NCBI GenBank assembly: GCA_018055005.1
Contig: JAGPIM010000007.1
Span: 1-35,060, forward strand
From: Laribacter sp.
GTDB lineage: Bacteria > Pseudomonadota > Gammaproteobacteria > Burkholderiales > Aquaspirillaceae
Direction of reading: 5' to 3'
DNA: 35,060 bases
How positions within the stretch are numbered: the first letter of the stretch is position 1; each line of letters begins with the position of its first letter. Below, in pieces: positions 311 to 15,900 of this stretch. A model generated the notes under the pieces. It searched no databases. It had not been told where the DNA came from and saw nothing but the letters and a program-made list of their open reading frames with translations. A program made the position numbers and the translations under genes.

Positions 311-1282
<972 letters not shown>

Positions 1283-1291
1283 TTTCCGCAT

Positions 1292-1888
1292 GTGAGCAAG
1301 TCGCTCAAAGAGCGCCTGAAAGCCATCAAACCGGCGCTGGTAGTCAAACCTCCAGCGCCGGTTGTTGTCGTTCCGCCTCCGGAGCCCGGCTTTCTGGAGC
1401 TGATGCGCGATGTACAGCCACTGCGACCCGATAACCGGGCCAGCCTGTCGCATCCCCGGCCGTCCCCTCACCCTCGTCCGCGCCATGAAATGATGGCCTG
1501 CCCGGCTGCGCACGAGGCATTTGCCAGCTGGTTCGATGAAGACCAGTCAGTTGCCGACTTTGCACGCAATGGTGTTCCGCGCGACATTTTCAAGCGCATG
1601 CGCGCCCGGCACTGGCCCATTGCATCCCGCGTAGACTTGCACGGTCATGATCGTGATGCGGCTGAAGCCCGCCTGCTCCTGGTCCTGCACCAGGCCAGCA
1701 GTCATGGTCACCGCATGGTATGTATCATTCACGGACAGGGATTCGGTTCTGCTGGCCGCCCGGTTCTGCGCCCCATGGTCAGGGCACTGTTGTCCCGACA
1801 CCCGGATGTCCTGGCCTATTGCTCCGCCTCTCCGGCCGATGGTGGAGAGGGGGCCATACTGGTGCTGCTGCGCCGTATCTTCCGTTAG
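1292..1888 (+). CDS. Smr-domain protein (putative DNA/RNA endonuclease, SmrA/YdaL type)
   Basis: 198 aa from a GTG at 1292; the ATG two bases earlier runs straight into a stop. The N-terminal half (1-100) is basic and proline-rich, with stretches such as PPAPVVVVPPPEPG and HPRPSPHPRPR, and looks disordered. The C-terminal Smr domain (about 112-197) has VDLHG at 114-118, the family's LDLHG motif, then IIHGQG at 145-150 where most members have HGKG. It ends with the GGEGAILVLLRR strand typical of stand-alone Smr proteins. Family members nick or cut nucleic acids; the exact substrate here is unknown. The gene follows trxB closely, which may only reflect cotranscription. Confidence 0.88.
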   Translation: MSKSLKERLKAIKPALVVKPPAPVVVVPPPEPGFLELMRDVQPLRPDNRASLSHPRPSPHPRPRHEMMACPAAHEAFASWFDEDQSVADFARNGVPRDIFKRMRARHWPIASRVDLHGHDRDAAEARLLLVLHQASSHGHRMVCIIHGQGFGSAGRPVLRPMVRALLSRHPDVLAYCSASPADGGEGAILVLLRRIFR

Positions 1889-1952
1889 ACTGATTCCCCG
1901 ACGGATGACTCTGGCAATCCAAGATTGATACTGTCCAAAAGTATTGGTCCAT

Positions 1953-1987
1953 AAAAAAGCGAAGCCATCAGTTGACTTCGCTTTTTT
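1953..1987. terminator. Strong bidirectional rho-independent terminator after trxB-smr
   Basis: The inverted repeat AAAAAAGCGAAG (1953-1964) pairs with CTTCGCTTTTTT (1976-1987) around an 11-base loop. The T-tract follows the stem on plus and the A-tract gives a T-tract on minus, so it can stop transcription both ways. It marks the boundary between the GC-rich core block and the AT-rich stretch. Confidence 0.9.
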
Positions 1988-2015
1988 AAGAACGCCAGTA
2001 AAAATTCCAAAATTC

Positions 2016-2044
2016 TTGACGCATTAAAATTGATTTAATATTCA
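2016..2044 (+). promoter_or_regulatory. Promoter-like sequence without an obvious gene
   Basis: TTGACG (2016-2021), a 17-base spacer and TATTCA (2039-2044) fit a sigma-70 promoter reading rightwards. No plus-strand ORF with a ribosome site follows, and the small gene remains downstream are on minus. It could drive an antisense or small RNA, or be chance in AT-rich DNA. Confidence 0.3.
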
Positions 2045-2090
2045 ATGCATTTCATGCCATGAACAGCCATCATTGCAATTCTCGCCCAAT

Positions 2091-2460
2091 TCAAAAGACA
2101 TAGCCGTTATAGAGATAAACATCATGGCTTTCGTCAATGCAAAAGCATGCCCCTTCCTCAGATAACGGGCTTTCAAAAAAATTGACAATGACTTCCGTTG
2201 CCAGCTTATACGGATCTTGTTTCAAAAAATTCTTAATGAAAAATCCAGCTCTGTAAGGGGTAAGCATGCAAGCCACCAACTCATGAATTAATGCAGTCGA
2301 TCAAAGGTTGATGTGTTTTTCGGCTAAATCAATTATAAAAATAATAACCAAGAGCAATTTCACTCAGAGCGGAAGCAATGAGCCACAAGAAAAAGCGGGA
2401 TTAGCATCTTGAATACAATACAAATCATACAGACGATCTGCCAAATCCTTGCCATTTTAA
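2091..2460 (-). pseudogene. Decayed or fragmented hypothetical reading frame in AT-rich DNA
   Basis: One minus-strand frame reads as plausible protein across this whole interval but is broken by in-frame stops. In order it gives a piece ending SCGSLLPL-stop, then VKLLLVIIFIIDLAEKHINL-stop, then STALIHELVACMLTPYRAGF and on to a final stop at 2091. The last, stop-free part (2091-2297) is the longest and includes FFIKNFLKQDPYKLATEV and ends DVYLYNGYVF. No convincing ribosome site or ATG precedes it; the nominal start at 2279 is a TTG. Either this is a gene inactivated by point changes and indels, or only the last 60-70 residues are a small gene from a weak start. I do not recognise the family. 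Confidence 0.4.
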
Positions 2461-2485
2461 TGGCAGGTTTCAACGTTTCATTTTG

Positions 2486-2599
2486 CTACTTTTTTGAAGC
2501 CTCCTCCAGCATCCTGATCAAAAACTCACCAACAAACCAGCGCTGCCAAGCCAGTTTGGCCATGAGTCGATCAAGCTGAGATACTACTTTACTATCCAT
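2486..2599 (-). CDS. Small hypothetical protein of 37 aa
   Basis: ATG at 2599 on minus, stop TAG at 2486-2488. The leader reads CGAGGTAAAACA before the ATG, a good ribosome site with normal spacing, which is the main reason to call it. The peptide begins MDSKVVSQLDRLMAKLAWQR and ends EFLIRMLEEASKK. It is an alternation of charged and hydrophobic/aromatic residues that would form one amphipathic helix, with no signal peptide or membrane span. I do not recognise a family. It lies just upstream (in its own direction) of the decayed frame at 2091-2460 and may be the surviving start of that gene or an independent small protein. Confidence 0.45.
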   Translation of the reverse strand: MDSKVVSQLDRLMAKLAWQRWFVGEFLIRMLEEASKK

Positions 2600-2780
2600 T
2601 GTTTTACCTCGTATTCACATTTACGTAACTTGAATTTGAAGACTGATCTCAATATGATTGATTTATTTTTTAATACGAATATTCAAGCCAGCACTGCAAC
2701 CATTCCATAGGAGCAGGCACCAATCGCTTCAATAAAGATCAAAGCATTGTCATTCGGATTATTTTCCTGGATTTTCATTA

Positions 2781-2811
2781 AAAATAAAAGCCTGTAACAG
2801 GCTTTTATTTT
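2781..2811. terminator. Bidirectional terminator after the small secreted protein gene
   Basis: Perfect 14-bp stem: AAAATAAAAGCCTG (2781-2794) and CAGGCTTTTATTTT (2798-2811) around a TAA loop, with A/T tracts on both sides. In the minus direction it lies 9 bases after the stop of the gene at 2820-3125. Confidence 0.9.
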
Positions 2812-2819
2812 TTCTTGCA

Positions 2820-3125
2820 TTAATGATTTTCACCATGCATTTTCTCCCATTTGGCCTTGTACTTTTCTCGCATGGATTTCTGCGCCATCCTTGATTCCTT
2901 CAGGCACTGACGTAGTTCATCACTTGCCTGAGCTTTTTCGATACAGGCATTATTGCTTTTAAGCAAATCCATCTTTTCTGCATTCATTTGCAGGATCATT
3001 TGCTTATGCTCCTTGAGTTGCTCGGGCGTCATTGGCTTGCCAGCACCATCACCGGATGCAGCAAATGCTTGAGACAAGGCCAAAACCGACAGCAAGGAAC
3101 ATGTCACTACAAGATGTGTACGCAT
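2820..3125 (-). CDS. Small secreted (periplasmic) hypothetical protein
   Basis: 101 aa from ATG 3125, chosen because AGAGAGGT sits 7 bases upstream and because it begins a clear Sec signal peptide: MRTHL, a hydrophobic core VVTCSLLSVLALSQ and a cleavage site AFA/AS near residue 22. A longer frame upstream adds 15 residues that break this pattern. The mature part is about 79 residues and strongly helical and charged (MTPEQLKEHKQMILQMNAEK, then RMAQKSMREKYKAKWEKM). Two cysteines (in NNACIEK and LRQCLKE) could form a disulfide. The M-T-P-E-Q-L start recalls small periplasmic Spy/CpxP-like helical proteins, but the LTxxQ repeats are not evident, so no function is assigned. It is monocistronic, ending at the terminator at 2781-2811. 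Confidence 0.75.
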   Translation of the reverse strand: MRTHLVVTCSLLSVLALSQAFAASGDGAGKPMTPEQLKEHKQMILQMNAEKMDLLKSNNACIEKAQASDELRQCLKESRMAQKSMREKYKAKWEKMHGENH

Positions 3126-3453
3126 AGTGCGGACCTCTCTGAAAAAAGATGTAATTAATGTAAGCAACAAGGATGTTCCAATCAGTCCTGCAATCAGGAT
3201 AGCTGCTTAATGATGACAGTAACGCTTCCACACTATTTCTTCATACTCCTGAAATGTGAAGAAATAGTGGGCGCACAAATCAGGTGCACTTGACCAAAAT
3301 ATCCAGACCGTTAGAGGTCACTTAAGCACCAACTGGGTGCATAAATCAATCCTGGATCCTTGAGCTGAAACATTTTAGTGCAACCCTATCAAACCAGAGT
3401 GAAGTGCATTCTTCATGATTTCTGCAAAATCCGACCTGCTTTTGTGCTGAATG
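3126..3453. other. Intergenic region, 328 bases, no gene seen
   Basis: It lies between two minus-strand genes and must hold the promoter of the small secreted protein gene. Apart from the inverted repeat at 3231-3269 I see no coding frame with a ribosome site and no terminator with a T-tract. The composition is AT-rich like the surrounding 2-4 kb. Confidence 0.5.
3231..3269. repeat. 13-bp perfect inverted repeat
   Basis: CACTATTTCTTCA (3231-3243) and TGAAGAAATAGTG (3257-3269) are perfect reverse complements around a 13-base spacer. No T-tract follows on either strand, so it is not a normal terminator. It sits 106-144 bases upstream of the start at 3125 and could be an operator, a leader hairpin or a scar of a small mobile repeat. 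Confidence 0.7.
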
Positions 3454-3807
3454 TTACTTTTCCCTCCAGTGCCCGCCATTCAGTTTCCAGTGATTTCCTT
3501 CCCTTTCCCATCGATGTGGCTCCCATTGATAACCTGCACGATGATGCTCCCAACGGCCAGGTCGCCATACATAACGCACACCATTCCAGTCCCAGAATCC
3601 TGACATCCAGAAAAAGCCGGCCGCTGGTGCTACTCCAGGGAATTCAACCAAAGGTTCTGGTGGCGGGGTATGAATATAGAAAGGGGTGAAAACAGGGCTG
3701 GCAGCCGGATAGTAACCTGGAGTCACGACACACCCACCCATGCCGGTGATGACCCCGCATACCAGAGCAAGCTCCAAGATGCGCAATATAATTTTTTTCT
3801 CCATCAT
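3454..3807 (-). CDS. WXXGXW-repeat envelope protein, probable lipoprotein
   Basis: 117 aa starting at tandem ATGs (3807/3804) with AAGGAAAA just upstream. Residues 1-25 form a signal peptide with a hydrophobic core (ILRILELALVCGVITGM). Cys26 follows Met-Gly-Gly, a loose lipobox, so lipid attachment is likely but not certain. A proline-rich linker follows. The second half carries repeated aromatic W-x-x-G-x-W units (FFWMSGFWDW, YVWRPGRWEHH, YQWEPHRWERE, WKLNGGHWREK), the signature of the YXWXXGXW repeat family found in outer-envelope proteins of beta- and gammaproteobacteria. The family's role is not defined. The base composition is lower in GC than the core genes nearby. The gene is monocistronic on minus with palindromes in its upstream region. 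Confidence 0.8.
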   Translation of the reverse strand: MMEKKIILRILELALVCGVITGMGGCVVTPGYYPAASPVFTPFYIHTPPPEPLVEFPGVAPAAGFFWMSGFWDWNGVRYVWRPGRWEHHRAGYQWEPHRWEREGNHWKLNGGHWREK

Positions 3808-4066
3808 GAATTTTCCTTTTGGGCATAATCAAAATACTGAGACATACGATATGTTAGTTCACAGAACAAATATCAATAATATTTTTTCCAGATGCAGCCA
3901 TGTAATTGACAGCATCCAATGCCCTGTCAAGGCAATTGATCTACCTGAAATTCATTAATGAGGATGCATGGAAGATCCAGAATTCATTATTAATGAATAC
4001 AGATCAGATGTCCTGTACGTTACAGTAAGCTGGATAGCTGGAAAATTAAAAATCTGTATTGGTCAA
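3808..4066. other. Intergenic region upstream of the WXXGXW gene, with palindromes
   Basis: AT-rich, with no credible gene on either strand. It holds the inverted repeat TTGACAG-N11-CTGTCAA (3906-3930) and two related AT palindromes, one at 3952-3961 (TCATTAATGA) and a longer one at 3982-3998 (ATTCATTA-t-TAATGAAT). They lie 100-190 bases upstream of the WXXGXW gene start and are candidates for regulator binding. Confidence 0.5.
3906..3930. promoter_or_regulatory. Candidate operator: 7-bp inverted repeat containing TTGACA
   Basis: TTGACAG (3906-3912) and CTGTCAA (3924-3930) are exact reverse complements with 11 bases between, so each arm contains a consensus -35 hexamer on one strand. On minus, the arm at 3930-3925 could be the -35 box for the WXXGXW gene, although no strong -10 is visible 17 bases on. 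A regulator covering both arms would cover the -35. Confidence 0.35.
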
Positions 4067-4093
4067 TAAAAAAAGCCCTGCTGTTGCAGGGCT
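4067..4093 (-). terminator. Rho-independent terminator of ssb
   Basis: On minus the stem AGCCCTGC/GCAGGGCT (4074-4093, 4-base loop) is followed by a run of seven T (4067-4073 region). It begins about 38 bases after the ssb stop. Confidence 0.9.
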
Positions 4094-4131
4094 CAAAGGT
4101 GAAACTTTATGCTTGATGTCGTAGCTGTATT

Positions 4132-4656
4132 TTAGAACGGAATGTCATCATCCATGTCGTCAAAATTGCTGGCCGGCTTCGGTTCCGGGCGACGCGGGGA
4201 AGGCGGCGGAGTGTCATCGCGCACCCGTTCCATCGGGCTGCCTTCGTCCATCCCTGCAGAGGAAGAAGAAGCCCGGCTGCCACCGCCATAGCCTCCACCG
4301 CCATAGCTGTCACTACCTTGGCCATCACGTCCGCCCAGCATCTGCATTTCGGTTGCTTCGATTTCAAACGCAGTACGTTCCACACCGTCCTTGCCCGTGT
4401 ACTTGCGCGAGCGGATCCGGCCCTCAACGTAAACCGGGCGGCCTTTCTTCAGGTATTCACCGGCAATTTCCGCCAGCCGGCGGTACATCACGATGTTGTG
4501 CCATTCCGTGCGCTCCTGGCGCATGCCGTTCTTGTCTTTCCAGGTATCGGTCGTGGCGATGCTGAAATTGCAGACGGCTTCACCGTTGGGCATGTAGCGC
4601 ACTTCCGGGTCACGGCCCAGATTGCCGACCAGAATGACCTTGTTGACGGATGCCAT
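4132..4656 (-). CDS. ssb: Single-stranded DNA-binding protein
   Basis: 174 aa, the normal size for a proteobacterial SSB. It coats single-stranded DNA in replication, repair and recombination and recruits partner proteins through its tail. The N-terminal OB fold (residues 1-110) starts [20 protein letters not shown] and contains [20 protein letters not shown] and the [10 protein letters not shown] strand. A flexible Gly/Ser/Pro-rich linker with [10 protein letters not shown] follows. The protein ends in the acidic tip DDMDDDIPF, the conserved partner-binding motif. The ATG at 4656 has AGGAG 9 bases upstream. It is divergent from the tetrathionate operon, and its terminator is at 4067-4093. 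Confidence 0.97.
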
Positions 4657-5132
4657 GTGTCTGTCTCCTGATGAGCCCGCGCCAGACAGGAACGGGCGGA
4701 CTCTAAATCTGATGAATGAAAATGACCGGACTCGCCATTTGCCAGCGTAAGCGAAGGCACGGGAAGCTGCCTAGTCCGATCTGCACACCTGTAAACCGGT
4801 GTGGCAAAAAGAAGGATTATACCGGTCCGCCAGAGCTGCGCCGAGTTGTTGCATGGCAAGCACACCACCATCCCTGCCTGGTGATTCCAGCCTTGCAGGT
4901 TCCCGTAGCCTGGTCCGCCTGGACTACATGGCTGGCCATGCCCGGCCCCTTGCAGCATCAGCCCCCGGGTTTTCCGGTCACGCAAGACATATTGCGTCAA
5001 GCCGATCCGTCAAACCCTATTCGCGACCAGGGGTTTTTATCTAGCCGGGTCCGGTTTCATCCCGATTGTGGCCATATCTCCTGAAACCTAGTCTGCCTGC
5101 ATGCGATTTTGCGTGTGCGAGGGAGCGTCATC
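4657..5132. other. Divergent intergenic region between ssb and ttrB (476 bases)
   Basis: No protein with a ribosome site and sensible composition is visible. On minus there is a TATAAT at 4816-4821 that could be the -10 box of ssb, without a clear -35 box. An inverted repeat CACACC-N8-GGTGTG lies at 4784-4803. Near the ttr side two direct copies of CGTCAA occur at 4995-5000 and 5008-5013, 13 bases apart. I see no convincing FNR box (TTGAT-N4-ATCAA). TtrR would be expected to act in this region. Confidence 0.45.
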
Positions 5133-5852
5133 ATGGGATGTAACCGCAGGGATTTCCTGCTCTCGGCCGGACAGGCCAGTATCGGCGTTGCCACCTGGGC
5201 CATTGCCGGTGATGCCAGAGCCGCAACCAGCGAAACCGGGCATGTACCGCGCTGGGCCATGGTGGTGGACGTCGGCAAATGCATTGGCTGCCAGGCGTGC
5301 ACGGTCAGCTGCATCATGGAAAACGCCGTGCCGGAAAACAGCTTCCGCACCATCGTTTCCACCTACGAAGTACACGACGACAGCCACACCGGCACCTACA
5401 TGCTGCCGCGGTTGTGCAATCACTGCGCCAACCCGCCCTGCATTCCGGTGTGCCCGGTCGGCGCCACCTTCCAGCAGGCTGACGGCACCGTCGTGGTCGA
5501 CGGCGAGCGTTGTGTCGGCTGTGCCTACTGCGTCCAGGCCTGTCCCTACGACGCCCGCTTTATCAATCACGATACCGGCAAGGCCGACAAGTGCACTTTC
5601 TGCGCCCACCGCATCGCGGTCGGCCTGCTGCCGGCGTGCGTGGAAACCTGCGTCGGCGGTGCCCGCGTGTTCGGCGACCTGAACGATCCGCAAAGCCAGG
5701 TCAGCCAGCTGGTCAAACAGCACGAGGTCAAGGTGCTCAAGCCGGAGCAGAACACCAGGCCGCACGTGTTCTACATCGGGCTGGACCCGCGCTTTGCCGG
5801 CCGAGTGGAGGGCGAAGGCGCCCTGTGGCAACCGCAAGAACATGGAGGCTGA
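5133..5852 (+). CDS. ttrB: Tetrathionate reductase subunit B, four-cluster ferredoxin
   Basis: 239 aa. It carries electrons from the membrane subunit TtrC to the catalytic TtrA in the periplasm. The ATG at 5133 is chosen over an upstream TTG because GGGAG lies 7 bases before it and it starts the twin-arginine signal (NRRDFLLSAG, residues 4-13), cut near GDARA/AT. Sixteen cysteines form four [4Fe-4S] motifs: C50/C53/C56/C60, C95/C98/C103/C107, C127/C130/C133/C137 and C154/C157/C169/C173. This is the DmsB/NrfC/PsrB type. ttrC starts 2 bases after the stop. The order B-C-A matches the characterised Salmonella operon, and together with ttrS/ttrR this separates it from other polysulfide or DMSO reductase-like sets. 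Confidence 0.93.
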   Translation: MGCNRRDFLLSAGQASIGVATWAIAGDARAATSETGHVPRWAMVVDVGKCIGCQACTVSCIMENAVPENSFRTIVSTYEVHDDSHTGTYMLPRLCNHCANPPCIPVCPVGATFQQADGTVVVDGERCVGCAYCVQACPYDARFINHDTGKADKCTFCAHRIAVGLLPACVETCVGGARVFGDLNDPQSQVSQLVKQHEVKVLKPEQNTRPHVFYIGLDPRFAGRVEGEGALWQPQEHGG

Positions 5853-5854
5853 GC

Positions 5855-6958
5855 ATGGACACCCAGATTGTCGAAGTCATCAACGTCAGCCGCGCCGTCG
5901 CCTGGCTGCCGTGGGCCGTACAGTATTTCTTCCTGATCGGCCTCAGTGTCGGCGCCTGGCTCCTCGCCCTGCCGTGGCTGTGGCGTGGTACGCAGGAAAC
6001 CCTCGGCCGCCTCTCCCTGCTGGCGTCCCTGGTATGCGGACTGGTGGCACCGGTGGCCCTGCTGGCCGATTTGCACGGCCCCGGGCGCTTTTACCATTTC
6101 TACCTCTACCTCCAGCCCCATTCATGGATGGCCTGGGGCTCGGTCTTCATCCCGCTTTATCTGGGCGGACTGATGCTGACCACCTGGCTGGCGTGGCGTG
6201 GCGACTTTGCCCGTCTGGCCGGAGCCACCTCCGGCCGGCTCGCCCGCCTCTACCGCCTGCTGGGTCACGGCGGCAGTACCAGCCGCCGCCAGCTGCGCAG
6301 CGTCAGCGTGCTGACCTTCGCCGGCGCCGCACTGGTAGCGCTGTACACCGGCATGGAAGTCATGGTGATCCAGGCACGTCCGCTGTGGCATACCCCGTTC
6401 CTGCCACTGCAATTCGGCGTGACTGCCGTTGCCGGTGCCATCGGACTGGTCCTGGTGTTCAACCGTTTGCTGGAAACACACGACCGCACGCTTGAAATTC
6501 GCCTGAACCAGTTGCTCGCCCTCACCCAGTTGCTGGTACTGGCACTGGGCGCACTGTGGCTGGCTACCGGCCTGCTGGCACTCGACCCGGTACACGCGCT
6601 GGCCCTGCAACAGGTCGCACGATCGGCCAGCTGGCAATTCTCCGCCGTCTGGGCCACCGCCGCCACCCTGCTGACCCTGCTGATCGCCACCCGCTGGCCG
6701 CATGGCAGCGGCCTCGTCACCGGCCTGCTGGCCCTGCACAGCGCCTGGATGATCCGCTGGACCGTGTTCATCGGCGGCCAGAGCGTACCCAAGACCGGCG
6801 CTGGCTTCTACGACTACCAGCTGCCGCTGGGCAACGACGGCCTGCTCGGCATCGTCGGCACGGCCGGGCTGTGGCTGGCCCTGCTGATGATCCTGCTCAG
6901 CTATTCCCCGTGGGCCGGCACCACCGGCCGTGACCTGACCGCACGGAGCGCATCATGA
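5855..6958 (+). CDS. ttrC: Tetrathionate reductase subunit C, NrfD-type membrane anchor
   Basis: 367 aa with ATG at 5855 and GGAGG 6 bases upstream. It is almost entirely hydrophobic, with about eight to nine membrane helices (for example WAVQYFFLIGLSVGAWLLAL, LASLVCGLVAPVALLA and TAGLWLALLMILL). The family is NrfD/PsrC, in which the subunit oxidises menaquinol or ubiquinol at the periplasmic side and passes electrons to the ferredoxin subunit. DLHGPGRFYHF in the second/third helix region matches the conserved quinol-site area. A longer in-frame extension upstream overlaps ttrB and is not real. The stop overlaps the ttrA start (ATGA at 6955-6958), so the two are translationally coupled. Confidence 0.9.
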   Translation: MDTQIVEVINVSRAVAWLPWAVQYFFLIGLSVGAWLLALPWLWRGTQETLGRLSLLASLVCGLVAPVALLADLHGPGRFYHFYLYLQPHSWMAWGSVFIPLYLGGLMLTTWLAWRGDFARLAGATSGRLARLYRLLGHGGSTSRRQLRSVSVLTFAGAALVALYTGMEVMVIQARPLWHTPFLPLQFGVTAVAGAIGLVLVFNRLLETHDRTLEIRLNQLLALTQLLVLALGALWLATGLLALDPVHALALQQVARSASWQFSAVWATAATLLTLLIATRWPHGSGLVTGLLALHSAWMIRWTVFIGGQSVPKTGAGFYDYQLPLGNDGLLGIVGTAGLWLALLMILLSYSPWAGTTGRDLTARSAS

Positions 6959-9900
6959 CCGATCGCCGCAATTTCCTTCGCAAGGCCGCCATTGGCGGTG
7001 GCCTCACCGCCTTTGCCGCCGGCTTTGCCACCACCGGCGTGCGCATGGCCGAGCATGCACTGGGACAGGACGCCCCCAACGACCGCCTGCACGGCAATTC
7101 GCTCAAGCCGGAGTTCCGCATCGATCCGGCCAGCGGCCGTCTTGAACCCGACCCCGGCCAGCAGGTCAGCTATACCGCCTGCCTCGGTTGCACCACCCAG
7201 TGCGGCGTGCGTGTGCGTATCGACAAGGCCAGCGGCAAGGTGCTGCGCGTGGCCGGCAACCCGTACAGCCCGCTGTCGACCGACCCGCACCTGCCGATGA
7301 AGGCATCAATCCGAGACAGCTTCATCGCGCTGTCGCGGCAAAACGAAAAAGGCCTCGCCGGGCGCTCGACCGCCTGCGGTCGCGGCAACGCGGTACTGAG
7401 CCAGATGGATTCGCCGTTCCGGGTGCTGACGCCGCTCAAGCGCGTCGGACCGCGCAACAGCGGCCAGTGGCAGCCGATTGCATTCGAACAGCTGGTAAAG
7501 GAGCTGACCGAGGGCGGAAACCTGTTTGGCGAAGGCCATGTCGACGGCCTGCGCGCGCTGCGCAGCTTCGAGCCAATCGACCCGGCCGCTCCGCAGCTAG
7601 GGCCCAGGGTCAACCAGGTGGCGGTATGGAGCAGCGTCAACGACGGGCGCGAGCCTTTCGCCCGCCGTTTCTGGCAGCAGGCCTACGGCACGCTCAACTT
7701 TGTCGGCCACGGCTCGTACTGCGGCGGCGCCTACCGCTCCGGCTCCGGTGCCATGTTCGGCGACCTGAAAGCCATGCCGCACGCCAAGCCTGATTTTGCC
7801 CACGCCGAATTCGTCATCTTTGTCGGCACGGCGCCGGGCAATGCCGGCAACCCGTTCAAGCGTCAGGGCACCTTGCTGGCCAAGGCTCGCACCAGCGGCC
7901 AGCTGAATTACGTGGTGGTCGATCCGGTGCTCTCCAACGCCGACAACCTGGCGAGCCGCGAACGTGGCAACTGGATTCCGATCCGCCCTGGCACCGACGG
8001 CGCGCTGGGCATGGCAATGATCCGCTGGATCATCGACCAGAAACGCTACGACGCCGCCTACCTGTCGCATCCCAACCAGTCCGTCGCACTGGCCGGCGGT
8101 GAACCCTCGTCAAGCAATGCCACCCATCTGGTGATCTGCCAGCCGGAGCATCCCCGCTTTGGGCGCTTCCTGCGTGCCTCGGACATGGGCTGGATCACGT
8201 TCGACAACGAGGAAGAGCGCTACGGCGAAGCCGACGGTTTCGTGGTCCTGCCCGCCGGGCAGACCGTCCCGGTGGCCCATCATGCAGCCACCGGGGCTGC
8301 CGAGCTGGAATACACCGGCCCGCTGGAAGTGGCCGGCAAACCGCTACTGGTTGCCACCTCGTTTTCCCTGCTGGCCGAATCGGCCAGACGGTACGATCTC
8401 ACGGAATACAGCGCGGCCTGCGGCATTCCCGAAGCCACCATCGTCGGACTTGCGCGCGAATTCACGTCGCACGGCAAGCGTGCGGCCGTCAACGCGCACG
8501 GCGGCATGATGTCCGGCAGCGGTTTTTACAATGCCTTCAGCCTGATGATGCTCAACACGCTGATCGGCAACCTGAACTGGAAAGGCGGCACCCTGCGCAA
8601 CGGCGGCGGCTTCAAGGAGGACGGCGAAGGCCCGCGCTACAACCTCGCGGCTTTCCCCGGCCAGACCAAACCGGGCGGCACGCCGCTGGGACGCAACGTG
8701 CCGTACGAGAAATCGGCCGAATTCGCCCGCAGGAAAGCGGCCGGCGAAAAGCCCTACCCCGCCAGCCTGCCGTGGTATCCCAATGCACCGGGGCTGACCA
8801 CCCAGTGGCTGCCGGCGGCACTGGCCGGCAATCCCTATCCGCTCAAGGCGCTCGTCTTGTGGTCAAGCAACCCGGTGTACGGCGTAACCGGCTTGCGTGC
8901 ACAGGTGGAAAAGGAACTGGCCGACCCGAAAAAACTGCCACTGATCGTGTCGATCGACCCGTTCATCAACGAATCCAACGCCTTTGCCGACTACATCGTG
9001 CCGGACTCGCTGATGTACGAATCGTGGGGCTGGACTGCCCCGTGGGGTTCGGTGCCGACCAAGGCCAGCACCGCGCGCTGGCCGGTGGTAGAACCCAAGG
9101 CCGACAAGCTGCCGGACGGCCAGGCGATCGGTCTGGAAACCCTGTCGATTGCACTGGCCCAGGCGATGGCACTGCCAGGTTTTGGCGAGGCGGCCATCAC
9201 CGACACCGACGGCAATACCTACCCGCTCAAGCGACCGGAAGACTGGTACCTGCGTGCCGGCGCCAATGTGGCGTGGCTGGGCAAGGAGCCGGTAGCCGAT
9301 GCCAGTGACGATGACCTTGCCCTCTCCGGCCTTGCCCGCCTGCAACCCGTGCTTGAAAACACGCTCAAGCCGGAAGAATGGCGCAAGGTAGCGTTCGTGC
9401 TGGCCCGCGGCGGCCGCTACCAGCCATACAAGGACACCTACGACGAGGAACATCCCGAGTGGGCCACCAACCGCTGGGACAAGCCGATGCAGGTGTACAA
9501 CGAATCGCTGGGCGCCTCGCGGGACAGCCAGAGCGGCCAGCGTTTTGCCGGCGTTCCGGTGTGGCAGCCACCGCGTTTTGCCGACGGCACGCCGGTACGC
9601 CAGTACTACGACGAACAGGCATGGCCATTGCAGCTGATCAGCTTCAAGTCGCCGCTGATGAACAGTTACGCCATTGCCTCGCCGCGCCTGCGCGGCCTGC
9701 ATCCCAGCAATCCGGTATCGATGCATGCGGACGATGCGGCGAAGCTGGGACTGGGGCACGGCGACCGTATCGTCATCGAAACACCGGGGGGCAAACGCGA
9801 AGCCACCGTGCTGGTTCGCCACGGCATCATGCCCGGCGTGGTAGCGGTCGAGCACGGCTACGGCCACCGCGAACTGGGTGCTCGCGCCCACCGTATCGGC

Positions 9901-10059
9901 AGCCAGCACCAGCCGGAAGTGGCCGGACTGGATGCCGGGATCAACCTGAACGACCTTGGCCTGGCCGACCCGACCGTGAACGGCAAATCGGTCTGGGTCG
10001 ACCCGGTCAGCGGTACCAGCGTGCGCCAGGGCATTCCGGCCCGGATCAGCAAGGCATGA
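6955..10059 (+). CDS. ttrA: Tetrathionate reductase catalytic subunit A, molybdopterin enzyme
   Basis: 1034 aa, close to the size of characterised TtrA. It reduces tetrathionate to two thiosulfate in the periplasm. The twin-arginine signal DRRNFLRKAA is at residues 3-12 with a hydrophobic stretch to about 27. One [4Fe-4S] cluster is bound by C76, C79, C83 and C141. C256 in SYCGGAYRSG is the likely molybdenum ligand. The central part is a DMSO-reductase-family bis-MGD fold (for example NAHGGMMSGSGFYNAFSLMM and SIDPFINESNAFADYIVP). The C-terminal molydopterin-dinucleotide-binding domain is at about 880-1030 (NPVSMHADDAAKLGLGHGDR). Relatives are arsenate and polysulfide reductases; the ttrBC and ttrSR context decides the call. 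The TtrA cofactor depends on Mo-cofactor synthesis, to which the mog gene at 33793 contributes. Confidence 0.92.
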   Translation: MTDRRNFLRKAAIGGGLTAFAAGFATTGVRMAEHALGQDAPNDRLHGNSLKPEFRIDPASGRLEPDPGQQVSYTACLGCTTQCGVRVRIDKASGKVLRVAGNPYSPLSTDPHLPMKASIRDSFIALSRQNEKGLAGRSTACGRGNAVLSQMDSPFRVLTPLKRVGPRNSGQWQPIAFEQLVKELTEGGNLFGEGHVDGLRALRSFEPIDPAAPQLGPRVNQVAVWSSVNDGREPFARRFWQQAYGTLNFVGHGSYCGGAYRSGSGAMFGDLKAMPHAKPDFAHAEFVIFVGTAPGNAGNPFKRQGTLLAKARTSGQLNYVVVDPVLSNADNLASRERGNWIPIRPGTDGALGMAMIRWIIDQKRYDAAYLSHPNQSVALAGGEPSSSNATHLVICQPEHPRFGRFLRASDMGWITFDNEEERYGEADGFVVLPAGQTVPVAHHAATGAAELEYTGPLEVAGKPLLVATSFSLLAESARRYDLTEYSAACGIPEATIVGLAREFTSHGKRAAVNAHGGMMSGSGFYNAFSLMMLNTLIGNLNWKGGTLRNGGGFKEDGEGPRYNLAAFPGQTKPGGTPLGRNVPYEKSAEFARRKAAGEKPYPASLPWYPNAPGLTTQWLPAALAGNPYPLKALVLWSSNPVYGVTGLRAQVEKELADPKKLPLIVSIDPFINESNAFADYIVPDSLMYESWGWTAPWGSVPTKASTARWPVVEPKADKLPDGQAIGLETLSIALAQAMALPGFGEAAITDTDGNTYPLKRPEDWYLRAGANVAWLGKEPVADASDDDLALSGLARLQPVLENTLKPEEWRKVAFVLARGGRYQPYKDTYDEEHPEWATNRWDKPMQVYNESLGASRDSQSGQRFAGVPVWQPPRFADGTPVRQYYDEQAWPLQLISFKSPLMNSYAIASPRLRGLHPSNPVSMHADDAAKLGLGHGDRIVIETPGGKREATVLVRHGIMPGVVAVEHGYGHRELGARAHRIGSQHQPEVAGLDAGINLNDLGLADPTVNGKSVWVDPVSGTSVRQGIPARISKA

Positions 10060-10240
10060 CGGCCCGGGTGGCCCGGCATGGCAGACACGCACTGCCCCGA
10101 CCGGGCCACCGGCGTTACCATGCTCCCGTTGCATGACAAACAGGCAGACATCCTTGCATGTGCATTCACCCCGTCCACCACCGGCCCCACTCCCGCCAGG
10201 CAGCCGGCAGCATGAGCTGCCCGGCGGGCCGTGCCGACTG

Positions 10241-12019
10241 ATGGGAATGCCCCGTCTTGCCGGTGCCGTGCTGCTGGCTGCCAGCCTGTGCCTGTCGCTG
10301 GCGGCTAGCGCCACCGGCATCCGCATCGGCATTCTTGCTCCCACCGGCCGCGAAAGCGCACGCAGCAACTGGGCCGAGCTTGAACGCTGGCTGGGGCAAG
10401 CCTTGCCCGGCGAAGAGCTGCACTTTGCCTATCTGTCACCGGAGGAACTCAACGATGCCGTTTCCCGGCATCAGCTTGAGTTCGTCCTGACCAATCCTGG
10501 CCACTACATCACGCTGGAAACCCGCTACGGCTCCAGCCGCATTGCCACGCTGGAATCCGGCCTGTCACCGCTGGCCGGCGAAGTCATCGGTTCGGCTGTC
10601 GTGGTACCGGCCGGCTCGCCGCTCCAGACTCTGGATGACTTGCGCCGGCGCCGGATCGTGGCGGTGGCACCCGATGCATTCGGCGGCTACCAGATCGCCG
10701 CACGCGAACTGCTCAAACGTGGCATCAATCCGGAACACGACCTGTCTGCGCGGCAATTCACCGGTTTTCCGGTCCAGAACCTGTTTGCCGCGCTGGATGC
10801 CGGCGCTGCCGACGCAGCCATTGTCGGCAGTTGCCAGATGGAGATGCTGCAAGCGCAAGGGCTGATCGCAGCGACCGGTTACCGGGTACTGCCGCCTGCC
10901 GCGCCACCGCCGGCCGGCTACCGGTGCCGGGTATCGACCCCGCTCTATCCCGACTGGCCGTTTGCCACCCTGCCCGGCACTGCGCATCCCCTGTCACGTC
11001 AGGTTGCCGTTGCGCTGTTGACCATGCCGCGTGGCACCGACGGTGCCGGTTTCACCGTACCGACCGACTATGCCGCCGTGCATGGCCTGTTCCGGGACTT
11101 GCAGACCGGACCTTACGCCTACCTTGCCGAATGGAACTGGCAGGACTGGGCCCGCCGTTACTGGGACTGGCTGCTGGCGGGTCTGGCGCTGCTGGCCGTA
11201 TGGGTCTTGCATACTATCCGCGCCGACCGGCTGGTCGAACAGCGCACGCGGGCACTGCGCCAGGAGATGGCCGCCCGCGCCGCAGCCGAAGAGCAAGGCC
11301 GCCGCCAGCGTGAACAGCTTGACCACCTTTCGCGCCTTGGCCTGCTGGGAGAAATCTCCAGCCAGCTCGCCCACGAAATCAACCAGCCGCTGACTGCCAT
11401 CGGCAACTACGCCCGCGGCATGGTCAGGCGGGTGGAAAACGGGCGGATGGAAGCCGACGGCCTGATCGAGGCCGGCCACGAAATCACCGCCCAGGCCGAG
11501 CGCGCTGCCGCCATTGTCCAGCGCGTGCGCACCTTTGCCCGCAAGCGCGTGTCCGAGCGCCAGCCCGTGGCCATTGATGCCCTGGTCGCCGATACCGTCC
11601 GCCTGTTTGCCGTGGCCTGCCCGGGCATTCCGCCGGTCGAAACCGACAACCGCCTGCCGCCCGGTAGCCGTCTGCACGTCGACGGCCTGCAAATCCAGCA
11701 GGTGCTGTTCAACCTGCTGAAAAATGCCAGTGATGCCATGGCCGGCCTGCCGGCATCGCAACGCATCATCCGGCTGGAACTGGCGCCGGACGAAGCCGGC
11801 CGCATGCGGATTACCGTGACCGACCGGGGGCCCGAGCTGGACGCCGGCACACTGTCCCGCATGGGTACGCCATTTTTCACCAGCAAACCGGACGGGCTAG
11901 GCATCGGCCTGTCCATTTCCCAATCCATCATCGAGGCGCACGGCGGTCATCTGGACTGGCGGCCACGCTCCGATGGCCCGGGACTGTGCGTCCTGTTCAC
12001 CCTGCCCCTACTGCCATGA
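10241..12019 (+). CDS. ttrS: Tetrathionate sensor histidine kinase
   Basis: 592 aa from ATG 10241; ATG 10247 and a longer frame from 10133 are alternatives, but the longer one adds a proline-rich piece before the signal peptide and has no ribosome site. The signal sequence AGAVLLAASLCLSLAASA leads into a periplasmic PhnD-like binding domain (about 25-300; IRIGILAP, VVVPAGSPLQTLDDL, GGYQIAARELLKRGINP). One membrane span follows at about 307-326 (WDWLLAGLALLAVWVLH), then a short coiled linker. The kinase has H378 in the H-box (SQLAHEINQPLTAIGNY), an N-box (FNLLKNASDA) and a GLGIGLSIS ATP lid. The FixL-like H-box fits a FixJ-type partner. The stop overlaps the ttrR start. In Salmonella the ttrSR pair also lies beside ttrBCA. 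Confidence 0.9.
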   Translation: MGMPRLAGAVLLAASLCLSLAASATGIRIGILAPTGRESARSNWAELERWLGQALPGEELHFAYLSPEELNDAVSRHQLEFVLTNPGHYITLETRYGSSRIATLESGLSPLAGEVIGSAVVVPAGSPLQTLDDLRRRRIVAVAPDAFGGYQIAARELLKRGINPEHDLSARQFTGFPVQNLFAALDAGAADAAIVGSCQMEMLQAQGLIAATGYRVLPPAAPPPAGYRCRVSTPLYPDWPFATLPGTAHPLSRQVAVALLTMPRGTDGAGFTVPTDYAAVHGLFRDLQTGPYAYLAEWNWQDWARRYWDWLLAGLALLAVWVLHTIRADRLVEQRTRALRQEMAARAAAEEQGRRQREQLDHLSRLGLLGEISSQLAHEINQPLTAIGNYARGMVRRVENGRMEADGLIEAGHEITAQAERAAAIVQRVRTFARKRVSERQPVAIDALVADTVRLFAVACPGIPPVETDNRLPPGSRLHVDGLQIQQVLFNLLKNASDAMAGLPASQRIIRLELAPDEAGRMRITVTDRGPELDAGTLSRMGTPFFTSKPDGLGIGLSISQSIIEAHGGHLDWRPRSDGPGLCVLFTLPLLP

Positions 12020-12669
12020 CCGACATTGCCAGCGAAACTGCCCTGATCCACCTGGTCGACGACGACGCCGCCATGCGCCGGTCGCTGGTCTATCTGCTTG
12101 ATTCGGTCGGCTGGCAGGCCGTGGCCCATGAATCGGCCAAAGCGTTCCTTGCAGCCTATCAGCCAGGCAACGTTGCCTGCCTCGTCCTTGACGTGCGCAT
12201 GCCTGACATGAGCGGACTGGAACTGCAACGGGAGCTGGGCGGCCATGACTGCAACCTGCCGGTCGTGTTCATCACCGGGCACGCCGAAGTCGGCATGGCA
12301 GTCGATGCCATGAAGGCCGGCGCATTCGACTTCATCGAAAAGCCGTTCAGCGACCAGCGTCTCCTGGACGTGATTGGTGCCGCCATCCGCGAAAGCCGGC
12401 GCCGCCTGCAAGCGATTCAGCGGCAACAGCAGGCCAGTACGCGACTGGCCCATCTGTCGCAACGCGAGCTGGAAGTCGCCCGCAAGGTGGCGCTTGGCCT
12501 GCCCAACAAGGTGGTGGCCCGCGAGCTGGCGATCAGCGAAAAAACCGTACAGGCTCACCGGCGCAACGTGATGGACAAGGCCGGGATCAGTTCGGCCGCC
12601 GAACTGACCCGCATGCTGATGATTGCCGATCCCGGATTCGCCGCAGAGCCGGAGGCCGGCAAGCCCTGA
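12016..12669 (+). CDS. ttrR: Tetrathionate response regulator, FixJ/NarL type
   Basis: 217 aa from ATG 12016, overlapping the ttrS stop by four bases (ATGA). The receiver domain (7-125) has the acidic pocket DDD at 15-17, phospho-acceptor D59 (VLDVRMPDMSG) and the conserved lysine in FIEKPF near 110. A helical linker (RRRLQAIQRQQQ) leads to a LuxR-type helix-turn-helix at about 145-205 (LSQRELEVARKVALGLPNKV, ISEKTVQAHRRNVMDKAGI). Its likely target is the ttrBCA promoter region at 4657-5132. No terminator with a T-tract is seen right after it, and the next gene starts 291 bases later. Confidence 0.92.
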   Translation: MTDIASETALIHLVDDDAAMRRSLVYLLDSVGWQAVAHESAKAFLAAYQPGNVACLVLDVRMPDMSGLELQRELGGHDCNLPVVFITGHAEVGMAVDAMKAGAFDFIEKPFSDQRLLDVIGAAIRESRRRLQAIQRQQQASTRLAHLSQRELEVARKVALGLPNKVVARELAISEKTVQAHRRNVMDKAGISSAAELTRMLMIADPGFAAEPEAGKP

Positions 12670-12960
12670 GCGGACAGCGCCTGTCGCACTGCCGCAGCCG
12701 GCTGGACTGACAAGCCGCAGGCATGATCTGCCGGGATGGTCAGCAGCCGCCTGCCCGTCATTGCAGCACAGGAAAACTGTGCAAAGCCCATGATTTTCCA
12801 GGGCATTCGGCTCCATGCGCTTCGCCTCATGGCCACAATCCAGTACCACGGGCAGCGAAGCCGGCGAATCCTCTGCATAATGTCGGTTACGCAGTCAGTC
12901 AACATGCTGAAAGCATTAAGAATAAATCCGCGCAATCCTGACGGGGTGCCAGAGCCAGCC

Positions 12961-15900
12961 ATGAAATTCCCTTCCCGCCTTCGCAAACCCCTTCATGTCG
13001 GACTCGTCACCACGTTGACCCTGGCCGGTCTGGGCGTCGCCGTTTACCTGTCCGGTCCCTTGCTGCTGCGCGGAGTGGCAGAAGAACAGCTCTCCGAAGC
13101 CCTTGGGCGGCCGGTCAGCATCGGCGGGCTGACGCTCAATGTGTTCACCCTTGGCGTGACGGTCGGCAACGTGCAGATCAGCGAGCCGGACGGCAGCACG
13201 CCCTTCGCTCGCCTGGACCGGCTGGAAATGCATTTCAGCCCGCGCTCGCTGCTGGGAGACTGGCGCATTGCCAGCCTTAAACTGGATACGCCGGACATCC
13301 GGCTGGTTCGCTTTGCCGACAACCGCTTCAATATCAGCGACCTGATCGAGCGTTTCCAGACGCCTTCCGGCAAACCGGTCCTGTTCGCCCTGGCAAATGC
13401 CAGAATCCGCCACGGCCGCATTGTCATCGACGACCGGCCGCTCAACCACCAGCACACCATCGACCGGCTGCAACTGACCATTCCGTACCTGTCCAATTTC
13501 CCGGCCGATCTGGATGTCAGTACCCAGCCGGAATTCAGTGCCAGCATCAACGGCAAGACGGTTTCGCTGGCCGGCAACAGCCATGTCTTCCGCGCCGACC
13601 GCCAGACGGTGATGAACCTCTATCTTGACGGCGTGGACCTGGCGCCGATGCTCGCCTACCTGCCCGTCAGCCTGCCCGTCAAGATCCCTTCGGTCCGGCT
13701 GGATACCCGGCTGCGGCTTTCCTACAGCACGCCGCCCAAAGGCATTCCGTCCCTGGACATCAGCGGCGTCATCGGCCTGCGCCGGCTGGCCTTGCAGAAT
13801 GCCGACGGCCAGCCGCTGGCCAGTGCGGAACGCATCGCATTCGACATCGACAGCTTCCAGCCGTTCAATCGTGAACTCAGAATTCGTGAAATCAGCATTG
13901 CCGCGCCCCGTTTTGACCTGATTCGCGCGGCTGACAGCCGCTTCAACTGGCTCAAGCTGGTTCCGCCGACCAGCCAGGGCCGTGGATCACAAGCAGCCGG
14001 CAACATTCCAGGCTGGCACTGGTCCATTGATACCGTCCGCCTGCGCCGGGGCGAGCTCTTCATGCACGATGCCGCCCTGGCCAAACCCTTTGCCAGCGAG
14101 CTCAACGACATTTCGCTGGATCTGCTCCGGCTGGACCAGCGCATGGAGACCCCGGTCTCGGCACGCCTGCGGATCAGCAGTCCCTATGCAGAAAGCGCCA
14201 CGCTCAGCGCCCAGATCGACCCGGCCGGGCGCACGCTGACCGGCGATTACCAGATCGATGCGCTCGACGTGGCGCGCTGGCGTCCTTATCTCGACCCGGT
14301 GCTGGCTTCCTATACCAGCCTGCGTCCGGCATCGCTGCGCCTGAGCAGCCGCGGGCAGCTGACCCTTGGTACCGCCCCGCAGGATGAATGGCGTTATGCC
14401 GTACAGGAAGGTCAACTGACACTGCGCGAACTGGCACTGGACGAACCGGGCAGCACACGACCGGCCATCCAGGCCGACGTGATCGAAGCCAGCGGCATCA
14501 GGCTGGACAGCCAGACGCGCCGCCTGTCGCTGGACACCCTGAACATGAGCCAGCCGGACATCAACCTGCTCCGGCAGCGCCAGCAGGACAACTTCGCCGG
14601 CTGGATCAAGCGTCCGCCGGCCCGGACTGCGGCCGGGCGCCGCAACAACACGCCGGACTGGCGCATCCAGGTTGGCCAGGCCCAGGTTGAACAAGGGCAG
14701 CTGCACTGGAACAGCGTGCGTGAACGCCGGCCGGTAAAGCTCGACCTGAGCGAGCTGTCCGCCCGTCTGCGTGGTTTTGACAGCGCCCGGCCGGCCGCCA
14801 TGCCGCTGGACCTGGAAACCCGCATCAACCGTCAGGGACGCGTCAATGCCCGGGGCCAGCTGAACCTGGCGCAAAGCGCACTGAAGGTGCAACTGAATGC
14901 CAGCCGCGTCGACCTTGTGCCGCTGCTGGTGCCGCCGACTTCACACATCCGCGTCAACATCGCCCGCGCCGGACTGGATGCGCGCGGAGAACTGGCCGTC
15001 GGCTGGCGCGATCCTGCACAGCCCAGCCTGGCTTATCGCGGACAGGCTGCCCTGCGCGATGTGCGCATCCGCGACGAAATCAACGTCGGTACCGAACTGG
15101 CCCGCTGGAAACAATTGGGCTTCAAAGACATCGACCTTGACTGGCAAGCCAGCACCCACAAGCTGCATGTCGGCCAGATCGACTGGCAGCAGTTTTTTGT
15201 GCAGGCGGTGCTGAACCAGAATGCCCGGCTCAACGTGCGGGAACTGCGCGACGACATGACCGGAGCGTCCGGCACACCGGCCGATGCCCCGGCCGCACCG
15301 GCGGTCTTGCCGGCAGCCGCCGCCACTTCCACGGTGCCGCTGGACCTGAGCATCGGCAAAATCCGCCTGCAACAAGGCAGCGTCAACTGGACTGACAATT
15401 TTGTCCGGCCGAACCTGCGGGCCAACATTACCGGCCTGAACGGCGAAATCGGCCGGTTGAGCAGCCAGGGCGGCAAGACGGCCGAAGTCGACCTGAAAGG
15501 CCGGGTCAACCGCGATGCGCCGCTTGTGGTGCAGGGCCGCATCAATCCGCTGGTGTCGCCCATGGCACTGGACCTGACCGCCACGGTAAAAGGCGTGGAC
15601 CTGCCACCCCTGACCCCGTACGCTGCCAAATACGCCGGCTACCCGATCACCAAGGGCAAAATGTCGCTGGACATGCACTACAGCGTGGCCAACCAGCAGC
15701 TCAAGGCTGAAAACCGCCTGTTCCTTGACCAGCTGACCTTTGGCGACAAGGTGGACAGCCCGGACGCCACCAGCCTGCCGGTGCTGCTGGCAGTGGACCT
15801 GCTGAAAAACCGTGACGGCGTGATCGACGTCAACCTGCCGATCAGCGGCACGCTGACCGATCCGGACTTCAGCGTCGGCGGCATCGTCATGCGGGTCATC

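Follow-up and report, generated by a model that had tools for sequence, protein, structure and literature searches.

The closest described system lies in the same genus. The tetrathionate reductase operon of Laribacter hongkongensis HLHK9 (LHK_01476-01478; PMC2652115, PMC3125206, PMC6722228) was published in 2009 and 2011, so the ttr cluster itself is already known, and it was described as the sole such operon among the Neisseriaceae genomes then complete. Its transcript was reported to rise without oxygen, with a partial influence of FNR (PMC6722228). In other bacteria, the response regulator TtrR activates ttrB (PMC5408782, PMC11293645). The ttrR box reported for gammaproteobacteria is GTGG-N4-CCAC, and in Vibrio parahaemolyticus, which carries this box at its ttrRS promoter, TtrR activates its own operon (PMC11293645). 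Tetrathionate respiration has been reported to aid Salmonella in the inflamed gut (PMC3125206), and Ttr sensors serve as inflammation reporters (PMC5408782). The locus analyzed here lies in a 35,060-nucleotide stretch of Laribacter DNA (the window) and has, by description, the same three reductase genes as the HLHK9 operon; a text search of PMC3125206 returned neither ttrS nor ttrR.

Five intact genes in the order ttrB-C-A-S-R, as the initial annotation had described them, were found at 5133-12669 with all frames unbroken on the plus strand. The features of the locus are as follows.

5027-5044, plus strand: candidate TtrR operator (dyad), the best matrix match in the window, 106 bp before ttrB
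5133-5852, plus strand: ttrB, iron-sulfur subunit (NF011569, 321.6 bits, cut-off 416; Fer4_11)
5855-6958, plus strand: ttrC, NrfD-type membrane subunit (NF011568, 202.4 bits; PF03916)
6955-10059, plus strand: ttrA, molybdopterin catalytic subunit (NF011567, 1215.2 bits; TtrA clade in the tree)
10060-10240, plus strand: spacer between ttrA and ttrS, holding a GC-rich hairpin (about 10062-10115) but no candidate TtrR site
10241-12019, plus strand: ttrS, sensor kinase (NF040750, 318.3 bits) with HisKA, HATPase_c and a periplasmic-binding-protein-like domain (PF12974)
12016-12669, plus strand: ttrR, FixJ/TtrR-type response regulator (NF006900, 222.2 bits; NF040749, 147.3 bits; Response_reg, GerE)

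The stop/start overlaps claimed for the cluster hold for ttrC/ttrA and ttrS/ttrR, both of which share an ATGA, and fail for ttrB/ttrC, where the stop codon (5850-5852) and the ATG (5855) are 2 nt apart. The gap between ttrA and ttrS measures 181 bases as previously stated, provided that ttrS starts at 10241. The ttrS frame is open, with an ATG start, already from 10133; an N-terminal extension of TtrS from this codon was considered unlikely, since three of the nine differences from the same-genus genome between 10133 and 10240 fall at third codon positions, a weak indication from a hand count. Key residues were also present in the translations as proposed, including RR motifs near the N-termini of TtrA and TtrB, HEINQP in TtrS and DVRMPD in TtrR. 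The translation of ttrB contains 16 cysteines in four groups, matching four cluster motifs. In an alignment of 17 sequences, TtrA C76, C79, C83 and C256 were invariant, and we take these to be the Fe-S cysteines and the molybdenum-ligand cysteine.

In NCBIfam searches, the Ttr model was the top match for ttrB, ttrC, ttrA and ttrS, while for ttrR the FixJ model NF006900 outscored the TtrR model NF040749. The best scores of the five genes stayed below the curated cut-offs (TtrA 1215 against 1750, TtrB 322 against 416, TtrC 202 against 314, TtrS 318 against 750 and TtrR 147 against 290, or 222 against 255 with the FixJ model), and ttrB cleared the cut-off of the DsrO model (233 vs 200). Among five TtrA relatives scanned, four were likewise below the TtrA cut-off and only the E. 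coli plasmid protein passed it, so that the cut-offs for TtrA, TtrB and TtrC seem to be fitted to enteric proteins. The pattern seen for the window's TtrS and TtrR recurred in both proteins of L032 and L064 and in the TtrR of L123. Pfam detected NrfD in TtrC, a phosphonate-binding-like domain with HisKA and HATPase in TtrS, and a receiver with a LuxR-type HTH in TtrR, which completes the domain set expected of TtrSR. Family-level ttr matches for five genes in pathway order are far beyond chance.

The identity of the reductase was addressed by phylogeny. A grouping of TtrA with arsenate or polysulfide reductases had been named beforehand as the outcome that would speak against the assignment; in a quick tree of 42 rows, the window protein instead fell inside a single clade of 25 TtrA rows (SH-aLRT 100). 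Five ArrA-like rows, four PhsA-like rows, one DmsA and more distant groups of five and two rows lay apart from this clade; the tree carried a long-branch warning, its ArrA-like and PhsA-like rows score below their own curated cut-offs, and it was built without SrdA and without named PhsA or ArrA. The nearest solved structures by sequence, thiosulfate/polysulfide reductase and ArrA, are both distant. Most likely, the cluster encodes a complete reductase of the tetrathionate type, to which a two-component system is linked; the substrate is indicated by the clade and this sensor. A main substrate other than tetrathionate, for instance selenate, arsenate or thiosulfate, is highly improbable. TtrA has been placed in one lineage with SrdA, a selenate reductase, and with an arsenate reductase from an archaeon (PMC7331816), and TtrBCA of V. 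parahaemolyticus also takes thiosulfate (PMC11293645); against this, a TtrS-type sensor is linked to the window enzyme, and its TtrA groups with that of the E. coli plasmid in trees from which SrdA is absent. A separate TtrA-like group outside the clade, with 38-41% identity to the window TtrA, was seen at L043, L044, L056, L057 and L058; the TtrA model gave the two members scanned about 708 bits each, and genomes G045 and G161 contain both kinds.

One same-genus genome (3.1 Mb) encodes TtrA at 98%, and TtrA was found in two of six family genomes searched, both of this genus. Counting the window's own genome, matches occurred in 15 of 300 genomes of the order and, at a stricter limit, in 7 of 369 genomes of the class. 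The own genome, which is incomplete (2.76 Mb in 262 contigs, 87% complete), also has a DmsA above its cut-off and a further molybdoenzyme frame with an in-frame TGA, which we infer to be a selenocysteine formate dehydrogenase; both DMSO reductase and selenocysteine are on record in papers on L. hongkongensis, whose genome is given there as 3.17 Mb with 62% GC. Around the cluster, about 2.2 kb of AT-rich DNA (1886-4130; GC 0.44-0.48 in 1500-base windows) lies between smrA and ssb and holds short minus-strand frames, for example 2820-3170 and 3454-3807; the smrA-ssb spacing in the same-genus genome (L031) is about 0.35 kb. As for an insertion of ttr between ssb and a DUF748 gene, the two genes lie apart in the one relative viewed (G235). 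The DUF748 gene at 12736 was dropped as a cluster member, as it also occurs in five genomes in which no TtrA was found.

The regulators-last order on one strand had been flagged as unusual, and a gene-order comparison bears this out. We compared 109 loci, comprising the window, 23 genome stretches, five plasmid-collection records and 80 contigs, the last being the best 80 of at least 550 confirmed relatives, which biases the sample to close kin. In this similarity-biased sample, ttrBCA followed by ttrSR on the same strand was found at two loci, the window and L031. The convergent arrangement (ttrBCA> <ttrRS) was the most frequent, with 37 loci, mostly from betaproteobacteria, and two more with a match for R only. 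Regulators stood first on the same strand at 18 loci, mostly alphaproteobacterial, and at two more with a match for R only; L138 (Alcaligenaceae) was the lone betaproteobacterial locus of this kind. Five loci were divergent (ttrRS/ttrBCA). No ttrSR was seen in the stretch at 32 loci (29 once three duplicates are subtracted), several of which end at contig edges. Nine loci were unclassified; L045 and L048 are convergent by eye, and L046 and L047 gave nothing above threshold. Two of the loci with ttrBCA and no nearby ttrSR, L060 (NZ_CP097491.1, Pseudomonas) and L063 (NZ_CP115780.1, Paracoccus), lie on plasmids typed as conjugative, a possible route of ttrBCA spread. L061 (NZ_AP026896.1) is a 4.9-Mb record labeled as an Aeromonas caviae plasmid, and its size looks chromosomal.

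In a TtrA tree of these loci, the window belonged to a supported set of 47 rows made up of 37 convergent, five regulator-less, three other and the two regulators-last loci. In the TtrR tree, its supported set comprised 31 rows, of which 28 are convergent, and the TtrS tree gave, within half of the rows, no supported set beyond the pair of the window and L031. On the simplest reading of these trees, the ancestor was convergent and ttrSR later became inverted; the branch of the window may, however, be basal in that set, and the change may have run in either direction.

Upstream of ttrB, the gammaproteobacterial box GTGG-N4-CCAC was present at all five divergent loci and had no match at one mismatch or fewer in window positions 1205-6384. 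For the FNR consensus, there was no site upstream of ttrB in the window within the mismatches allowed. A different dyad, TAGG-N8-CCTA, with no more than a single mismatch, was found before ttrB at 25 of 36 convergent loci, where shuffles predicted 1.25, and upstream of ttrS at 1 of 37 (0.55 expected); the pattern was chosen with the window's upstream sequence already in view, and the counts run over related loci and are therefore non-independent. It also preceded ttrB at 9 of 18 regulators-first loci (0.8 expected), often as TAGGGG-N4-CCCCTA, and at 4 of 29 loci without ttrSR (1.45 expected). The fuller palindrome stands before ttrB at the regulators-first loci L134, L143, L125, L118 and L113, and is perhaps an alphaproteobacterial form of the TtrR operator.

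A matrix was refined on the 36 convergent loci with the window and L031 left out; 33 sites were used, and L070, L082 and L102 are the convergent loci without a good site. Most training sites (29 of 33) are situated 95-135 bp upstream of the aligned ttrB start. When both strands of the window were scanned, the top match was 5027-5044, at 12.03 bits compared with a convergent median of 20.5. The same dyad is identical in the same-genus genome, and when the own genome was searched for this exact box, allowing three mismatches and thus missing weaker sites, the ttrB site alone was returned. Upstream of ttrB, at least 12 bits were reached by three of the 18 regulators-first loci and by none of the five divergent ones; upstream of ttrS, by one of the 37 convergent loci and by neither of the two regulators-last loci. 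The dyad could match by chance or belong to a different regulator, with TtrR binding elsewhere, as 25 of 200 shuffled windows reached 12.0 bits somewhere and 7 of the 29 loci without ttrSR also have at least 12 bits before ttrB. We consider this unlikely, because only one of 200 shuffled versions of the 476 nt preceding ttrB reached that score and the distance to ttrB agrees with that of the training sites. The dyad at 5027-5044 is statistically supported as a candidate TtrR site.

These observations suggest how the locus might work. By analogy with the protein families, TtrC would draw electrons from quinol, TtrB would relay them to TtrA's molybdenum site, and TtrA would convert tetrathionate to two thiosulfate. 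TtrS would detect tetrathionate and phosphorylate TtrR, whose binding at the dyad would switch ttrB on. If some transcripts extend past the hairpin and the rest of the 181-base gap into ttrSR, activation would raise its own regulators because they lie downstream on the same strand, giving positive feedback through gene order. Cotranscription with positive feedback is plausible, and the candidate TtrR site upstream of ttrB makes it likelier; co-orientation and the two ATGA overlaps also support the read-through model. For the whole explanation, an operon under TtrR control through the dyad with feedback by read-through into ttrSR, we estimate a probability of about one half.

The hairpin of the ttrA-ttrS gap is GC-rich without a U run (fold z -2.64 for the whole gap stretch), its arms are unchanged in the same-genus genome, and such a stable structure in a long gap may cut or stop read-through. 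A rival reading is a promoter of ttrSR's own, in the gap or late in ttrA and under constitutive or anaerobic control, with the hairpin ending the ttrBCA transcript and no feedback. The gap and hairpin fit this reading, as does the fact that ttrS of most convergent relatives must have its own promoter, and one without the dyad. A scan of 4600-13000 found no sigma-70-like site; it was blank at ttrB too and is therefore insensitive. The terminator scan of the same region gave two terminator-like sites, fewer than in shuffles; both lie on the minus strand. Of the separate promoter that the initial annotation had suggested for the gap, a TtrR-driven form finds no support, the gap containing no matrix site (best -2.5 bits), while a promoter of another type may lie there. 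On balance, independent transcription of ttrSR seems somewhat less likely than read-through.

Returning to the read-through model, its extension to the wider group is possible but tentative: the FixJ-like betaproteobacterial TtrR may have its own operator, TAGG-N8-YCTA, and control ttrBCA and not ttrSR in most convergent relatives, whereas in the window's genus the placement of ttrSR behind ttrBCA would create a self-reinforcing switch by gene order. Neither the regulators-last order nor this dyad was found described in the open-access literature as far as it was covered, a weak indication that no description exists. Should the dyad prove to be the TtrR site of betaproteobacteria, the four arrangements of enzyme and sensor would form a natural set for testing the effect of gene order on feedback. 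The system is a known one with a small variation in layout, and its unusual part is the gene order.

Among other systems, the window is close to the convergent betaproteobacterial loci, for example those of Janthinobacterium, Rhodoferax and Aromatoleum, with which it shares the nearest TtrA clade, a TtrR resembling FixJ and, before ttrB, a dyad of the same kind; their ttrSR genes, however, lie tail to tail on the opposite strand, whereas those of the window lie on the same strand. The five protein families are also common to the enteric and Vibrio/Shewanella ttrRS-ttrBCA systems. In the enteric-type locus of the E. coli plasmid, the regulatory genes run divergently from ttrBCA on the other strand, unlike in the window, and the enteric, Vibrio and Shewanella box is GTGG-N4-CCAC in place of TAGG-N8-YCTA. 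Whereas autoregulation in V. parahaemolyticus operates through a box at the regulators' own promoter, in the window it would arise from gene order.
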